Assembly: GCA_028279875.1 (NCBI GenBank) | Contig: JANQMU010000061.1 | Location: 1 to 64,000, forward strand | Length of the DNA stretch: 64,000 bases | From: Rhizobiaceae bacterium | Lineage (GTDB): Bacteria > Pseudomonadota > Alphaproteobacteria > Rhizobiales > Rhizobiaceae | Direction of reading: 5' to 3' | Part shown: positions 25,151 through 30,753 of the stretch, one piece after another | Position numbering within the stretch: position 1 is the stretch's first letter | Layout of the letters: each line of letters begins with the position of its first letter | Position numbers and translations under genes: made by a program | The notes under the pieces: generated by a model | Seen by the model: the letters and a program-made list of their open reading frames with translations, nothing else | What the model was told of the DNA's origin: nothing | Databases searched by the model: none

Positions 25151-26044
25151 TCAGCCGGCGAAGAGATTTTCAGGAAGACCACGCATATCGGTTTCGACGG
25201 CAAACAGCGCGCCGGCATCCGGTTCCGAGTTCAGCGCCTCCGCCGACATGCGCTGGCGGGCGCTGGTGATGAACAATGTTCTCAGATCATCGCTCCCGAA
25301 CGTGCAGGCGGTGACCTGCGAGACCGGTACCTTGATGATCCGGTCGCATCTGCCATCGGGCGTGAAACGGACCACGCATCCGGCGCCATAGCGCACATTC
25401 CACAAGCCGCCATCGCTGTCCACGGCCGACCCGTCGGGCATGCCGGGCGCCGCCGTCGCCGCTGCAAAAATGCGGCGGTTGCCGATCGTGCCGGTATCAA
25501 CGTCAAAGTCGAACGCCTCGATTTCACCGGTTTTTGAATCGGAGAAATACATGGTCCTGCCATCGGGGCTCCATCGCATGCTGTTGGGGATGCAGACATG
25601 CTCCAGCAGCGTGTCGCACTCGCCGGTAGCACCGATGCGATAAAGCCGCCCCCCGGCATAGCGCGCGCGGTCGACCATCGTGCCGAGCCACAAGCGGCCA
25701 TGGGAATCGCAACGGCCTTCGTTCGGCCGGTTGTCGGGCAGGTCGCTTTCGAGCTCCTTGAATCTGTCGAGTGTCCCGGAACCAGGATCGAAGACATGAA
25801 TGCCACCCTTGAGGGCGAGCAGCAGGCCGCCGCGTGAACGCAGAGCAACGGCGCCGACGAGAGCCGGCATCGCATAGCGATCCAGTGCGCCGCTCGACGG
25901 GACATATCGAAAAACCGCCGGGGCGCGGATGTCCACCCACCACAGACAGGCTTCCCGCACGGACCATACTGGCCCTTCGCCAAGTGCATTGGCGACCTTG
26001 CAAACCATCCGGGCCGGACCGCAATCGCCCGAAGCAGCGATCAT
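25151..26044 (-). CDS. SMP-30/gluconolactonase/LRE family protein
   Basis: ALGEGPVWSVREACLWWVDI, DLPDNRPNEGRCDSHGRLWLGTM, IPNSMRWSPDGRTMYFSDS, GMPDGSAVDSDGGLWNVRY; start overlaps upstream stop. Confidence 0.9.
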   Translation of the reverse strand: MIAASGDCGPARMVCKVANALGEGPVWSVREACLWWVDIRAPAVFRYVPSSGALDRYAMPALVGAVALRSRGGLLLALKGGIHVFDPGSGTLDRFKELESDLPDNRPNEGRCDSHGRLWLGTMVDRARYAGGRLYRIGATGECDTLLEHVCIPNSMRWSPDGRTMYFSDSKTGEIEAFDFDVDTGTIGNRRIFAAATAAPGMPDGSAVDSDGGLWNVRYGAGCVVRFTPDGRCDRIIKVPVSQVTACTFGSDDLRTLFITSARQRMSAEALNSEPDAGALFAVETDMRGLPENLFAG

Positions 26045-26892
26045 TCGGTGTGGCCGGGATTGCAGATCGATACGACCGACCGGCGGACGGCTTCCGGCGC
26101 GAAGACCCGGTCCAGCCATCCCTCCCTGAAGATGACGGGTTTTGCTTCCTCCATCGCCTGGATTGCGCCTTCGGAGAACTGACCGTCGGTAAAGGCCTTG
26201 AAGAAAATGGAGAGCTCGATCTGCAGATGGCCGAGCATGAAGTCGATCGCCGCGGCCTCGGGCACGCCTCTGCGGATCGCTTCATCGGTCGCTTCGCGCA
26301 TCGCCTGGCACAGGGTTGCGCCGACGGTTTCGGCAAGCGCCGGCTCCAGAATGGCGATCTGCTCAAGCGTGCACCGGTGCGAGCGGACAACGGGCGCGTA
26401 AATCGTCCGCGCCACCTCTTCGCACAGCGCATAATGATCTTCCGGACCCTGTATCAGGGCACAGACGATGCCTTGTTTGGCGGCGACACCGCCGAAAAAA
26501 TCCCTCTGGGCGGCAGGATCGGTTTCGTAGCCGAACAGCGGAGGGTGGCACGGATGGGTGCAGAAGTAGGTCACGTCGTCCCGCTCCGGCATTTCCCCGG
26601 CATAGGGGGCCGCCGCATCCAGCACGATCAGCGCACAGCCCGGACGCACCTTGTCGATGACCTGCCGGGCGACCTTGCCGATCAGCCGGTCGGGCACCGC
26701 CAGCACCACGATATCGGTATCCTGCAGCGCCGTTTCGAGAGCGACGGTTTCGATCCCGAGTTCGTCCCGGAGCCTCGCCCGGCCGGCCTCCGAGATCTCG
26801 ACATGGCTGACGTCGAACCGGGACCGCTGAAGATTGGTGGACAGGCGAACGCCCATTTTTCCGCCGGCGCCTAAAAGTGCGATCCTCGTCAT
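26041..26892 (-). CDS. NAD-binding phosphogluconate-dehydrogenase-C-terminal-like oxidoreductase (ApnO-like, D-apionate oxidoisomerase candidate)
   Basis: MTRIALLGAGGKMGVRLSTNLQRSRFDVSHVEIS Rossmann motif; TYFCTHPCHPPLFGYETDPAAQRDFFGG; neighbour of DUF1537 kinase and RLP. Confidence 0.75.
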   Translation of the reverse strand: MTRIALLGAGGKMGVRLSTNLQRSRFDVSHVEISEAGRARLRDELGIETVALETALQDTDIVVLAVPDRLIGKVARQVIDKVRPGCALIVLDAAAPYAGEMPERDDVTYFCTHPCHPPLFGYETDPAAQRDFFGGVAAKQGIVCALIQGPEDHYALCEEVARTIYAPVVRSHRCTLEQIAILEPALAETVGATLCQAMREATDEAIRRGVPEAAAIDFMLGHLQIELSIFFKAFTDGQFSEGAIQAMEEAKPVIFREGWLDRVFAPEAVRRSVVSICNPGHTE

Positions 26893-28265
26893 AGTGCAGT
26901 TCTCCCAAGGGTTTCGGCGCTGCCGCCGTCTCTGATTGTGCCGAAATAGTCCGGCTCTCCCATCTGCCCGCCCTTGAACGCGATCTCGAATGGTTCGCGG
27001 TCACCGGCCTCGCAATGGGCGAGGCAAAGCCCGCCACCGGCCGCAATGGGCGCCAGGGCGGTCAACGCTTCGATGCCGAGCTGTCGCCCGGCGTAACCGG
27101 ACGTATCGCCTCCCGATATGGCGACTCGGCCAAGGCCGGTTCTTTTCAACACGGTCTCAAGCACCCGCCCCAGGGCGATGCCGATCCGCCCATTGGCCTC
27201 GCCCGGATCAAGCCCGGCCCGCGCGACCGTCTCATGGTAACGGCCAACGGCCGGATCATCGGGACCGGATGCGGTGTGAACCAGCGGCGACTTGCCGGCA
27301 TCCGCCGCACGCAGCGCCGCCTGCACGGCCTCATCCACCGCCCGGTCCATGCCGGCCTCATCCACCACGGTGGCCGGATCGAACCGTATCGGTTCGAAGC
27401 CGTTGCCGCCGGCCCAGGCGATCTGCGCCGCCGCGACCGGGGATACCGATCCCGACACAGCGGCGATGCGATCCAGCGCCGCGACACGGGGGAAAGACAC
27501 CTGCGACGAAAGCCGACCGTCGGCGCGCCAATGGGCCACAAGCGCATATTCAACGCCTTGCGACCCGATGACAAAGGGCGCGGCCTGCCGGTTTTGCCAG
27601 ATGAGCCGGCCGGCCTCGGCCATGTCCGGAGGATCGCAGGCGTCGATTGCAATGATTTTCGCGCCGTCGCGACACTGACCCGCCAGCGCATCATCGGCTG
27701 ATTTCCGGTCTTGCAGGTCCGTCAGCTCGACAAGCCCGATCGATGTATCGGTCTGGGCCGCGAGATGGCGGCGGATATCAGCCTCGCGCATCGGAGTCAC
27801 CGGGTGCCGGCGCATGGTCGGGTGCCGGTCGAGCCGGTGCACCACCCCGCCGTCTTCGGCAAACAGGGTGCCGAAGGCCTGATACCGGCCGATCGGCGGA
27901 GCGGCGACCAGCAGCGGGTGCCAGGCGCCACCGACGATCGGCGCGGCAATGTCGATCCCCTTTCCGATCGATCCGGTCTCGGGCGATGAATCGAATGTGG
28001 AACAGACCTTGTAGTGAACAAGCTCGGCGCCGGTGGCGGTCAGCGCTTCGAAGATCGGCGGAAGAGCACTATCCATCCATTCGGGCGGTTTCGAACGGGC
28101 GACCCCGGCAACACCGATCGCCTGATAGGCCGGATAGGCCGCCAGCATGGCTTCCGTCGGCGGTTTGAGGAAAAGGACCGATGGGACACCGGCGAAGGTC
28201 AGGACCTCCATCACGGCCGACGCGCCGGTAAAGTCATCCCCGTACCAGGCCAACAGGCGGCTCAT
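26889..28265 (-). CDS. Four-carbon acid sugar kinase family protein (DUF1537; OiaK/DtnK/OtnK-type)
   Basis: LAWYGDDFTGASAVMEVLTFAGVPSVLFL, VHYKVCSTFDSSPETGSIGKGID, VAISGGDTSGYAGRQLGIEALT. Confidence 0.92.
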   Translation of the reverse strand: MSRLLAWYGDDFTGASAVMEVLTFAGVPSVLFLKPPTEAMLAAYPAYQAIGVAGVARSKPPEWMDSALPPIFEALTATGAELVHYKVCSTFDSSPETGSIGKGIDIAAPIVGGAWHPLLVAAPPIGRYQAFGTLFAEDGGVVHRLDRHPTMRRHPVTPMREADIRRHLAAQTDTSIGLVELTDLQDRKSADDALAGQCRDGAKIIAIDACDPPDMAEAGRLIWQNRQAAPFVIGSQGVEYALVAHWRADGRLSSQVSFPRVAALDRIAAVSGSVSPVAAAQIAWAGGNGFEPIRFDPATVVDEAGMDRAVDEAVQAALRAADAGKSPLVHTASGPDDPAVGRYHETVARAGLDPGEANGRIGIALGRVLETVLKRTGLGRVAISGGDTSGYAGRQLGIEALTALAPIAAGGGLCLAHCEAGDREPFEIAFKGGQMGEPDYFGTIRDGGSAETLGRTAL

Positions 28266-29530
28266 GAATAGGCCTCAATGGCGCGCGCAAGTGCTCGGTC
28301 ACGGCGCGCCTGCTCTTCCAGCGGGGTGCCGGAAACCGCGGCCTCCCAGGCCGATCGCAGGCTTTCCACCCCGGCCGCCGGCCCGTCGGGATGGGCCATG
28401 ATCCCGCCGCCAGCGGCATAGATCAGATCGGTGCTTTGCAGCAATCGGAAGGTCTCTGGTGGCTGCAGCGCCGACTGGCCGGACGAAAAGACCGGCATTG
28501 CAATGCAGGGTTTGTCCGGCCAGAGCGGTGTCAGACACTGCCGGGCCGAGGCGATGACGCTGTCATTGGCCTCGCAGAACTTGTTGTCGAGCCCGTTGAC
28601 ATGCATGTGATCGGCGCCGGCCAGCCGCCACAGCTTCTGCCAGGCGATATAGGACCACCCGAGAAGCGGATGGCGGGAAAGATAACCCCAACCGTTCCGA
28701 TGGGCGTGGATCGGCAATTCGGCATGACAACCAAGTTCGATCATGCCGACAAGGCCGACGGAATTGAGGCTTGCCATGACGCATGTGCCGCCGTGGGAAA
28801 CCACGAAGTCGTGGCGGCGACGCATCTGATCGAGATCGCCGGTGAGATTGAACGCGAACATGACGCGCTTGCCGGTCCGCTCCGCATGGCGTTCGATCGC
28901 CTGTGACACCGCTTTCACGCGGTCCTCGAACGGGCAGGCCGGACCGTCGGACTGCAATTCGTCATCCTTGATGAAGTCGATACCCGCCTCGGCAAGGCGC
29001 GTCACCAATGCGGCGGTTTCGGACGGCCCGAGGCCGACACTGGGTTTGACGATCGTGCCGATCAGCGGCCCGTTGTCGACCATTGCCAGCCGGCGCGTGC
29101 CCTCGACCCCGAATTTCGGTCCCGGATAGGCGGCTGCAAACGATTGATCGAGCCTGATGTCGAGAATACGCAGGCCCGAAAACTGTGCCAGTTCGAACAG
29201 ATTGCCGGCGACGGTGGCCATCAGGTTCGGCAGTGACGGGCCGATATTGGCCACCGGCCAGGACAGGGTGACTCGGGCGCGTTTGACAGGGCCGGTGCCG
29301 GGATGACGCGCGCCGGGCAGAGAGGGCCCGTCGCCGACATCCTCCTCTACGATGTCGATGCGCTCGACCCGCGCTGCCGACCGGGCCTTGAGTTCGGCGG
29401 TCTCGCCGGGCAGCGGCACGAATGTGCCCGAGGACTGCTCTCCGGCCATCACCGCCACGGCCGCATCGACCGGAAAAGCGGTTTCTACCAGATAATCGGC
29501 TTCAATTCGGTCAGTTGCGAACACACTCAT
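28262..29530 (-). CDS. RuBisCO-like protein (form IV RLP; OiaX/OiaT-type candidate)
   Basis: GTIVKPSVGLGPSETA, AGIDFIKDDELQSDGPACPFEDRV, IHAHRNGWGYLSRHP, DHMHVNGLDNKFCE, IYAAGGGIMAHPDGPAAG; start chosen at MSVFATD. Confidence 0.92.
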   Translation of the reverse strand: MSVFATDRIEADYLVETAFPVDAAVAVMAGEQSSGTFVPLPGETAELKARSAARVERIDIVEEDVGDGPSLPGARHPGTGPVKRARVTLSWPVANIGPSLPNLMATVAGNLFELAQFSGLRILDIRLDQSFAAAYPGPKFGVEGTRRLAMVDNGPLIGTIVKPSVGLGPSETAALVTRLAEAGIDFIKDDELQSDGPACPFEDRVKAVSQAIERHAERTGKRVMFAFNLTGDLDQMRRRHDFVVSHGGTCVMASLNSVGLVGMIELGCHAELPIHAHRNGWGYLSRHPLLGWSYIAWQKLWRLAGADHMHVNGLDNKFCEANDSVIASARQCLTPLWPDKPCIAMPVFSSGQSALQPPETFRLLQSTDLIYAAGGGIMAHPDGPAAGVESLRSAWEAAVSGTPLEEQARRDRALARAIEAYS

Positions 29531-29573
29531 CGGATTCCGGACAGTCACGCCATCATGAAAAGTGATATAGTGA

Positions 29574-29584
29574 TTATACCAGTT
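29574..29584. promoter_or_regulatory. Candidate FadR/GntR operator half-site upstream of RLP operon
   Basis: TTATACCAGTT; identical 11-mer in inverse orientation at 30754-30764. Confidence 0.55.
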
Positions 29585-29664
29585 GAAGTTCGCCCGCAAG
29601 CCCCTCAGGACCTTGTTCACGATCTGAAGCGCATCAATGCACGGGATCTTGAAAAAGAGGGCTA

Positions 29665-29930
29665 GGCTGTGGTGACCATTTAACTTATGCGCCGGCGTGG
29701 CACACTTCGTTCCTGGCAAGGCGCGAAATGCGCCGTAGTGTCGGCCACTTCAAGCATTTCGCAACGATGCCCAGGGGCGAAGTGTGCCTCGTCCCGAAGG
29801 GATTTGACCGGATTTGCCCATGATCAGCCCACTCGTCGTCGAATATGCACCAGCATGTCCTTCCTCCTCGTAGACCGATCCTGAACAAATCCGGACAAAC
29901 CGGCACACAAGTTAAATGGTCACCACAGCC
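29665..29930. mobile_element. MITE-like element with TA target duplication inside CTAG
   Basis: Perfect 22-bp TIRs GGCTGTGGTGACCATTTAACTT (29665-29686) and AAGTTAAATGGTCACCACAGCC (29909-29930), flanked by TA (29663-29664 and 29931-29932); no transposase-sized ORF. Confidence 0.82.
29699..29788. repeat. Long nested stem-loop inside the MITE-like element
   Basis: GGCACACTTCG (29699-29709)/CGAAGTGTGCC (29778-29788) enclosing GCGAAATGC (29723-29731)/GCATTTCGC (29754-29762). Confidence 0.7.
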
Positions 29931-29943
29931 TAGTGCCCGGGCG

Positions 29944-30675
29944 TCAGGACGCGTTGTGGGATGGGAGATTCTTGGAGTGGTACAGGCTGTTTGCCCGGTA
30001 GAGATGATCGCCCATCGATTTGGCGGCCCGCTCGGCGTCACCCGATTCGATGGCGTCCAGAATCTCGCCGTGCTCGCGCAATGTGAGCTTTTCCAGACCT
30101 GGGCGAGACAACAGGTCGATATGGAAGTTTTCCAGCCAGGCGAGGATCGCTTCGATCAGCGACACAAAGATCGGATTGCCGCTGATGCTTGCGATGCAGC
30201 GGTGAAAATCGGTGTCGCACTGCCGAAACCGGCCGGTATCGCGGCTTGCTTCTTCCTGCTTCCGCAGGATGGAGCGCAGCATGGCAAGGTCCGATTCGGT
30301 GCGTTTGCGGGAGGCGATGCGCGCCAGTTCCATCTCGAAGGTCGCCCGCGCTTCCTTCAGGTGATTGAGGGTCGGTTCGGAATGGGTGAGCATGTGGACG
30401 ACCGTGGCGCTCATGCGGCCCATCATGTCACTGATCGAAGGATCGGCCACGCGCGGTCGCTCGCCGTGGCGGATTTCCACTAGTCCGGAGCGCTGCAGGT
30501 TTTGCATCGCCTCGCGGATCGCCGGACGTCCGACGCCATAGGCGGCCATCAATTCGCGTTCCGACGGCAGCGGGTCACCGGGCTTGAGGTCGCCGCGCTG
30601 GACAATTGCCAGGACACGCTCCTCCACGTCGTCGGCAAGCTTTCGGCGCCGTATGGGTTTGCTTGTTGTAGTCAT
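29944..30675 (-). CDS. FadR/GntR family transcriptional regulator
   Basis: KLADDVEERVLAIVQRGDLKPGDPLPSERELMAAYGVGRPAIREAMQNLQRSGLVEIRHGERPRV; start chosen at MTTTSKP. Confidence 0.9.
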   Translation of the reverse strand: MTTTSKPIRRRKLADDVEERVLAIVQRGDLKPGDPLPSERELMAAYGVGRPAIREAMQNLQRSGLVEIRHGERPRVADPSISDMMGRMSATVVHMLTHSEPTLNHLKEARATFEMELARIASRKRTESDLAMLRSILRKQEEASRDTGRFRQCDTDFHRCIASISGNPIFVSLIEAILAWLENFHIDLLSRPGLEKLTLREHGEILDAIESGDAERAAKSMGDHLYRANSLYHSKNLPSHNAS

Positions 30676-30686
30676 ACCAGTGGTAT
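30674..30686. promoter_or_regulatory. Candidate operator palindrome over the regulator start codon
   Basis: ATACCAGTGGTAT palindrome sharing the ATACCAG half-site with 29574-29584. Confidence 0.5.
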
Positions 30687-30753
30687 CGGCTGATTTGCGC
30701 GACAATACAATATGCATTCCCTGATATCAGCAAATTTCTGCCAGACAGATTGC

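Follow-up and report, generated by a model that had tools for sequence, protein, structure and literature searches.

Our study describes a 266-bp repetitive element in a 64,000-nucleotide stretch of DNA (the window) from the genome of a Hoeflea species. In all likelihood it is a non-autonomous MITE, belonging to a family of nearly uniform size (~267 bp) with a structured, non-coding palindromic core and outer ends of ~20 bp recognised by IS5-family (DUF4096/DDE_Tnp_1) transposases; in Hoeflea these ends belong to the ISNGR9 type. The common view of MITEs is that each derives by deletion from a single IS and disappears together with it. In the present case, sequence comparison indicates that the core is older than the ends, and in our reading these elements form a new MITE family whose IS5-type ends are interchangeable. 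The literature searched, with partial coverage, contained no description of MITEs in which the core stays constant while matched ends are exchanged.

Within the window, the segment 29662-29686 (CTAGGCTGTGGTGACCATTTAACTT) is the exact reverse complement of 29909-29933, as an earlier sequence-only reading had stated. The perfect repeat comprises 22 bp inside the duplicated TA, the figure of 25 bp being reached only by taking in the CTA and TAG of the target, and the inverted repeat goes on imperfectly to about 31-34 bp per side. The 266-bp length, the perfect 22-bp repeats, the TA duplication at CTAG, the lack of an encoded transposase and the resulting expectation of mobilisation in trans, all put forward in that reading, agree with our evidence, in which the element is a short (<500 bp), non-coding MITE with dispersed copies in differing flanks. 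The probable start of the minus-strand RuBisCO-like gene is ~134 bp away, with the element upstream of it; the stop codon of the GntR/FadR-type regulator is 11 bp from the TA of the element, the MITE being downstream of this minus-strand gene. The minus-strand cluster at 25151-30717 encodes a RuBisCO-like protein, a two-domain sugar-acid kinase (SBD_N/NBD_C), a phosphogluconate-dehydrogenase-like protein, an SMP-30 lactonase and the GntR/FadR regulator, and adjoins ABC sugar-transport genes; it presumably resembles acid-sugar (apionate/isoapionate-type) catabolic loci.

Table 1. Features of the MITE and its neighbours, in window positions.
Feature	Position	Strand	Evidence
MITE, 266 bp (267 bp in most relatives)	29665..29930		28-element alignment A2 and same-genome copies
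Left copy of duplicated target TA (in CTAG)	29663..29664		junction also seen in ISNGR9-like IS; a G007 copy has a proposed empty site
Right copy of duplicated target TA	29931..29932		
Left terminal inverted repeat (TIR)	29665..29696	+	outer 20 nt GGCTGTGGTGACCATTTAAC match ISNGR9-like IS ends
Right terminal inverted repeat (TIR)	29899..29930	-	
Core arm B, ~96-nt hairpin (helices 4-6 of A2)	29696..29791		
Core arm A, ~97-nt hairpin (helices 2-3 of A2)	29803..29899		
Conserved Shine-Dalgarno-like motif GAGGAGGAAGGACATG	29854..29869	-	
RuBisCO-like protein gene, neighbour	28262..29530	-	Pfam PF00016/PF02788
GntR/FadR-type regulator, neighbour	29944..30717	-	Pfam PF00392/PF07729

The copy search proposed with the sequence-only reading found the element to be multicopy. 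The host genome (G000), a draft assembly of 164 contigs, holds seven full copies including that of the window, the other six at 93-97% identity, together with six further copies cut by contig ends and a 177-bp derivative on contig C17 that lacks most of one hairpin arm. A pattern of the 31-bp end gave 43 matches, against none for a reversed-pattern control; because of this difference and the six additional full copies, the inverted repeat is far beyond chance. Blast recovered full copies in other Hoeflea genomes, at 91-92% identity in G004 and in H. poritis (G007), a relative of the same genus, and at 82% in G006. G004 also carries ~180-bp short forms, in which, as in the C17 derivative, arm B is largely missing. 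The ends vary by Hoeflea species, with GGCTGTAGTGACGATTTAACC in G004 and GGCTTTGG... in part of G007. An exact-pattern scan of GTDB genomes gave a match in Hoeflea poritis only, and our searches of plasmid and phage records returned no copies at the DNA or peptide level.

Full copies mostly show the junction CTA-GG...CC-TAG (hyphens mark the edges of the element). In H. poritis a full copy lies between dac and tmk as CCTTA-MITE-TAACGC, where G008 has CCCCTTAACGC. This comparison fits a TA duplication, and we propose the G008 sequence as a candidate empty site, which is supportive only, since the flanks have diverged outside ~11 bp at the junction. The search for empty sites thus succeeded in part: for the window copy, whose flanks are too diverged, none of the eight other Hoeflea genomes yielded an empty allele.

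Judged against sequenced elements, the ends and junction of the MITE are of the ISNGR9-like IS5-family type and not of IS630. The host genome contains a relic IS with the TIR of the MITE, truncated at its 3' end (C62:33152-33364); at C62:33344, what looked like a solo end belongs to a truncated gene for an IS5-type transposase, of which it is the 3' end, and the encoded C-terminus, RRVAIRYDKLLANFLGFVKSAAIQLWLKWLNRHHSL, runs into the MITE's repeat. Searching with the relic's C-terminus led to ISNGR9-like IS5-family elements on rhizobial and related plasmids (S. fredii pNGR234a, R. leguminosarum, Mesorhizobium, Xanthobacter, Pelagibacterium), which share the outer ~20 bp and the CTA-GG...CC-TAG junction with the MITE. 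At eight plasmid loci these elements have a TIR close to GG(T/C/G)(C/T)GT(G/A)GTGACGATTTAAC, and CTA-...-TA junctions are present in all eight; they are 852-859 bp long with a transposase gene, whereas the MITE core bears no visible relation to the IS sequence. The window TIR matches that of ISNGR9 (GGTCGTGGTGACGATTTAAC) at 17 of 20 positions, and the right end of the Xanthobacter IS (GGCTGTAGTGACGATTTAAC) matches the window TIR at 18 of 20 and the G004 MITE at all 20; the G004 copy excepted, MITE and IS share 85-90% TIR identity, not perfect identity. In genome G429 the MITE end GGGCCTGTGGACATTCAA is one base in 18 off the end GGGTCTGTGGACATTCAA of an 843-bp IS5-family IS in the same genome. 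From these matches, the MITE appears to use an IS5-family transposase supplied in trans. The DDE_Tnp_1/DUF4096 loci of the host genome (L091-L098) were tried as the partner, and their ends do not match. The proposed search for an IS with matching ends was therefore successful on plasmids and gave only the truncated relic in the host genome, where no intact ISNGR9-like element was found (in a draft assembly such absence is not final), so that current mobility is inferred only. The MITE interior does not look like a deletion derivative of an IS: its core is common to elements with other ends and contains no visible transposase sequence.

The sequence-only reading had assigned the element to IS630 (Tc1/mariner-like) transposons, an origin that now seems very improbable. 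TA duplication within CTAG is known for IS630, and RUP provides a precedent for MITEs driven by IS630 (PMC2229807), but the duplication is common to the IS5-family elements described here and is not diagnostic, the TIR and junction belong to IS5-family elements with sequenced transposases, and a DDE_3 (IS630) transposase search of the host genome gave no match. The findings that the same reading had named as speaking against a MITE, namely a single copy, no IS sharing the TIR and no empty allele, are not what the genomes hold.

The whole element is one long quasi-palindrome. In the consensus fold of 28 elements (alignment A2) the ends pair with each other and enclose two arms, giving 99 pairs, 73 of which show two-sided compensatory change; the covariation score is 0.494, against 0.165 when shuffled and at most 0.1 when slid. 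The window element alone has a z of -14 as RNA and -11.8 as DNA, and its minus-strand RNA fold reaches -169 kcal/mol. The RNA fold, the compensatory pairs and an excess of G-U over A-C exceptions in arm A would suit a structured or regulatory RNA gene that happens to be mobile, with the covariation reflecting selection on the transcript. We hold this to be improbable: selection on a transcript should lead to a surplus of G-U on the strand transcribed, but in the 77 pairs common to the folds of both strands the 46 G-U exceptions stand against 47 A-C exceptions, and arm B leans to the other strand. Such strand-neutral covariation points to maintenance of the palindrome at the level of DNA. In addition, Rfam returned no family at gathering score, only sub-threshold microRNA-like chance matches, and the element has many copies per genome with different neighbours. 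Strand-neutral compensatory base-pair changes need not mean a functional RNA, and this MITE family is a clear case. Multi-base compensatory changes are documented to arise by template switching between the arms of inverted repeats (PMC8794818; same topic PMC7202029, PMC8604942), and the matching ends could be kept purely by replication template switching across the quasi-palindrome, their likeness to IS ends being partly convergent. Compensation is just as strong within the core arms, where a transposase has no need of a match, and this favours the account, but we regard it as unlikely on its own, as the TA junctions and the outer ends correspond to those of real IS5 elements, once in the same genome. 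The element also contains a 64-aa frame (M.IFNDE...NPFGTRP...LNRP) that most genera keep open, together with a strong Shine-Dalgarno-like motif, and a peptide profile detects family members across the order. A mini-gene encoding a conserved peptide is nevertheless scarcely credible. The dN/dS of ~0.95 and three equally variable codon positions rule out a protein-coding reading of the frame, the start or frame is lost in the Hoeflea copies with the window end type and in G285, G429, G047 and G167, and the peptide matched no Pfam or NCBIfam family. The motif GAGGAGGAAGGACATG is kept where the ATG or the reading frame is lost and is thus probably not a start site.

Outside Hoeflea, the blast matches cover the interior of the MITE only. 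A profile search with this interior found the ~200-bp core, which the family has in common within elements of ~267 bp, in 18 of 398 genomes; these cover 14 of the 142 genera sampled in the order. The elements are mostly 264-268 bp long with a GG tip and TA flanks, the scan for their limits having given a slight reward to the latter. Their ends are very different (GGGCCTGTTGAGTATCAT, GGGCCTGTCTTCACTCAT, GGACCTGTTGACAAAGG, GGGCCTGCCATCACTC, GGTCGTGGTGAGGATTTAAC and others): comparison of the window, G004, G006 or G252b with G008 gives cores that are ~80% identical with outer ends only 38-52% identical, while mean agreement between both ends of one element is 94%. Genome G252 carries both an ISNGR9-type and a GGGCCTGTTGAG-type element, and by core sequence the ISNGR9-type copy clusters with those of Hoeflea, so that end type and core subfamily go together there. 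The G252 copies L297 (C5) and L295 (C34), with different end types and lengths of 292 and 297 bp, apparently share a core insert (both frames MP.IFPGKFGDE), which suggests exchange between subfamilies in one genome. The CcrM methylation site GANTC is under-represented in the family, occurring in 8 of the 28 A2 elements against an expectation of ~1 per element by chance.

We propose a model in which a transposase of the IS5 family, provided in trans, would recognise the pair of matching ends and carry the element into a TA, preferably within CTAG, with duplication of the TA, in a reaction that may have been active recently; the ends would be re-matched by selection for a functional end pair, by inverted-repeat template switching, or by both. 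It is possible, though we hold the idea with less than even confidence, that the MITE lineage outlives its transposases, one palindromic core persisting throughout the order by repeatedly swapping its outer ~20 bp for the ends of the resident IS5-family element and the second end being brought into line with the first by inverted-repeat copying. A core older than its ends makes transposase switching, and the change of both ends in step, open to sequence-based and transposition tests.

RUP of S. pneumoniae, for which mobilisation in trans by an IS whose ends match has been proposed (PMC2229807), Correia/NEMIS of Neisseria and ERIC of enterobacteria are, like the MITE, short stem-loop elements with TIRs and a terminal TA. 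They measure about 107-155 bp and occur in other phyla or classes, and RUP pairs with IS630, whereas the Hoeflea MITE has an IS5-family partner, a core common to an order and ends that differ between lineages. The Caulobacter/Brucella intergenic repeats (CIR) are also alphaproteobacterial and intergenic with a two-arm secondary structure (PMC2229807); however, they are ~110 bp long with a conserved GANTC and no TIR, whereas in the MITE a TIR stem closes the structure and GANTC is absent or unconserved. Identity with CIR was rejected because the family has no conserved GANTC. QMITE1/QMITE2 of Coxiella and other MITEs have many truncated copies beside full ones, as here (PMC10969869), but the truncations of the Hoeflea MITE cluster at the TIR/core junction.

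One end alone is present at about 40 sites in the host genome and about ten in relatives. These solo ends, about 50 in G000, G004, G007, G008 and G001 (L044-L062, L145-L182), are ~34 nt or 14-20 nt long and often abut gene stop codons. Among the 50 analysed, 28 stop at 30-39 nt, corresponding to the TIR/core junction, and only three are longer; the search patterns favour matches above ~20 nt, and longer remnants would also show in the copy search. We treat the solo ends as MITE remnants. A REP-type reading of the 34-bp ends, suggested by their sharp boundary, was set aside, as they have no obvious internal hairpin and the unit varies with each species' MITE ends. Their sharp inner boundary is not explained by simple transposition and counts against our explanation of the element as an IS5-mobilised MITE. 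Since the TIR/core junction is the base of the arms in the fold, cleavage of an extruded cruciform at this point is a possible, if speculative, cause.

Among 34 stop triplets at element boundaries, 15 close a frame of 100 codons or more, compared with 12.3% of random TAG triplets (p = 4e-6). With G as the first base of the element, an insertion at the TA within a stop codon still yields TAG, so gene ends are harmless targets; the preference for stop codons suggests how such MITEs pile up harmlessly in a gene-dense genome. At the adh-lpxXL junction of the host genome a ~21-bp end supplies the stop codon, and the insert is absent in five of the six relatives aligned, with a degenerate version in G004. 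At L178:60-120 (G000 C65:97) an end similar to the second TIR type (...CAACAGACCC) lies immediately next to a TAGGCTGTGGTGACC end, which suggests that one element type inserted at the TA of another; likewise, the NXC24 ISNGR9-like copy is followed by TAGGGCCTGT.
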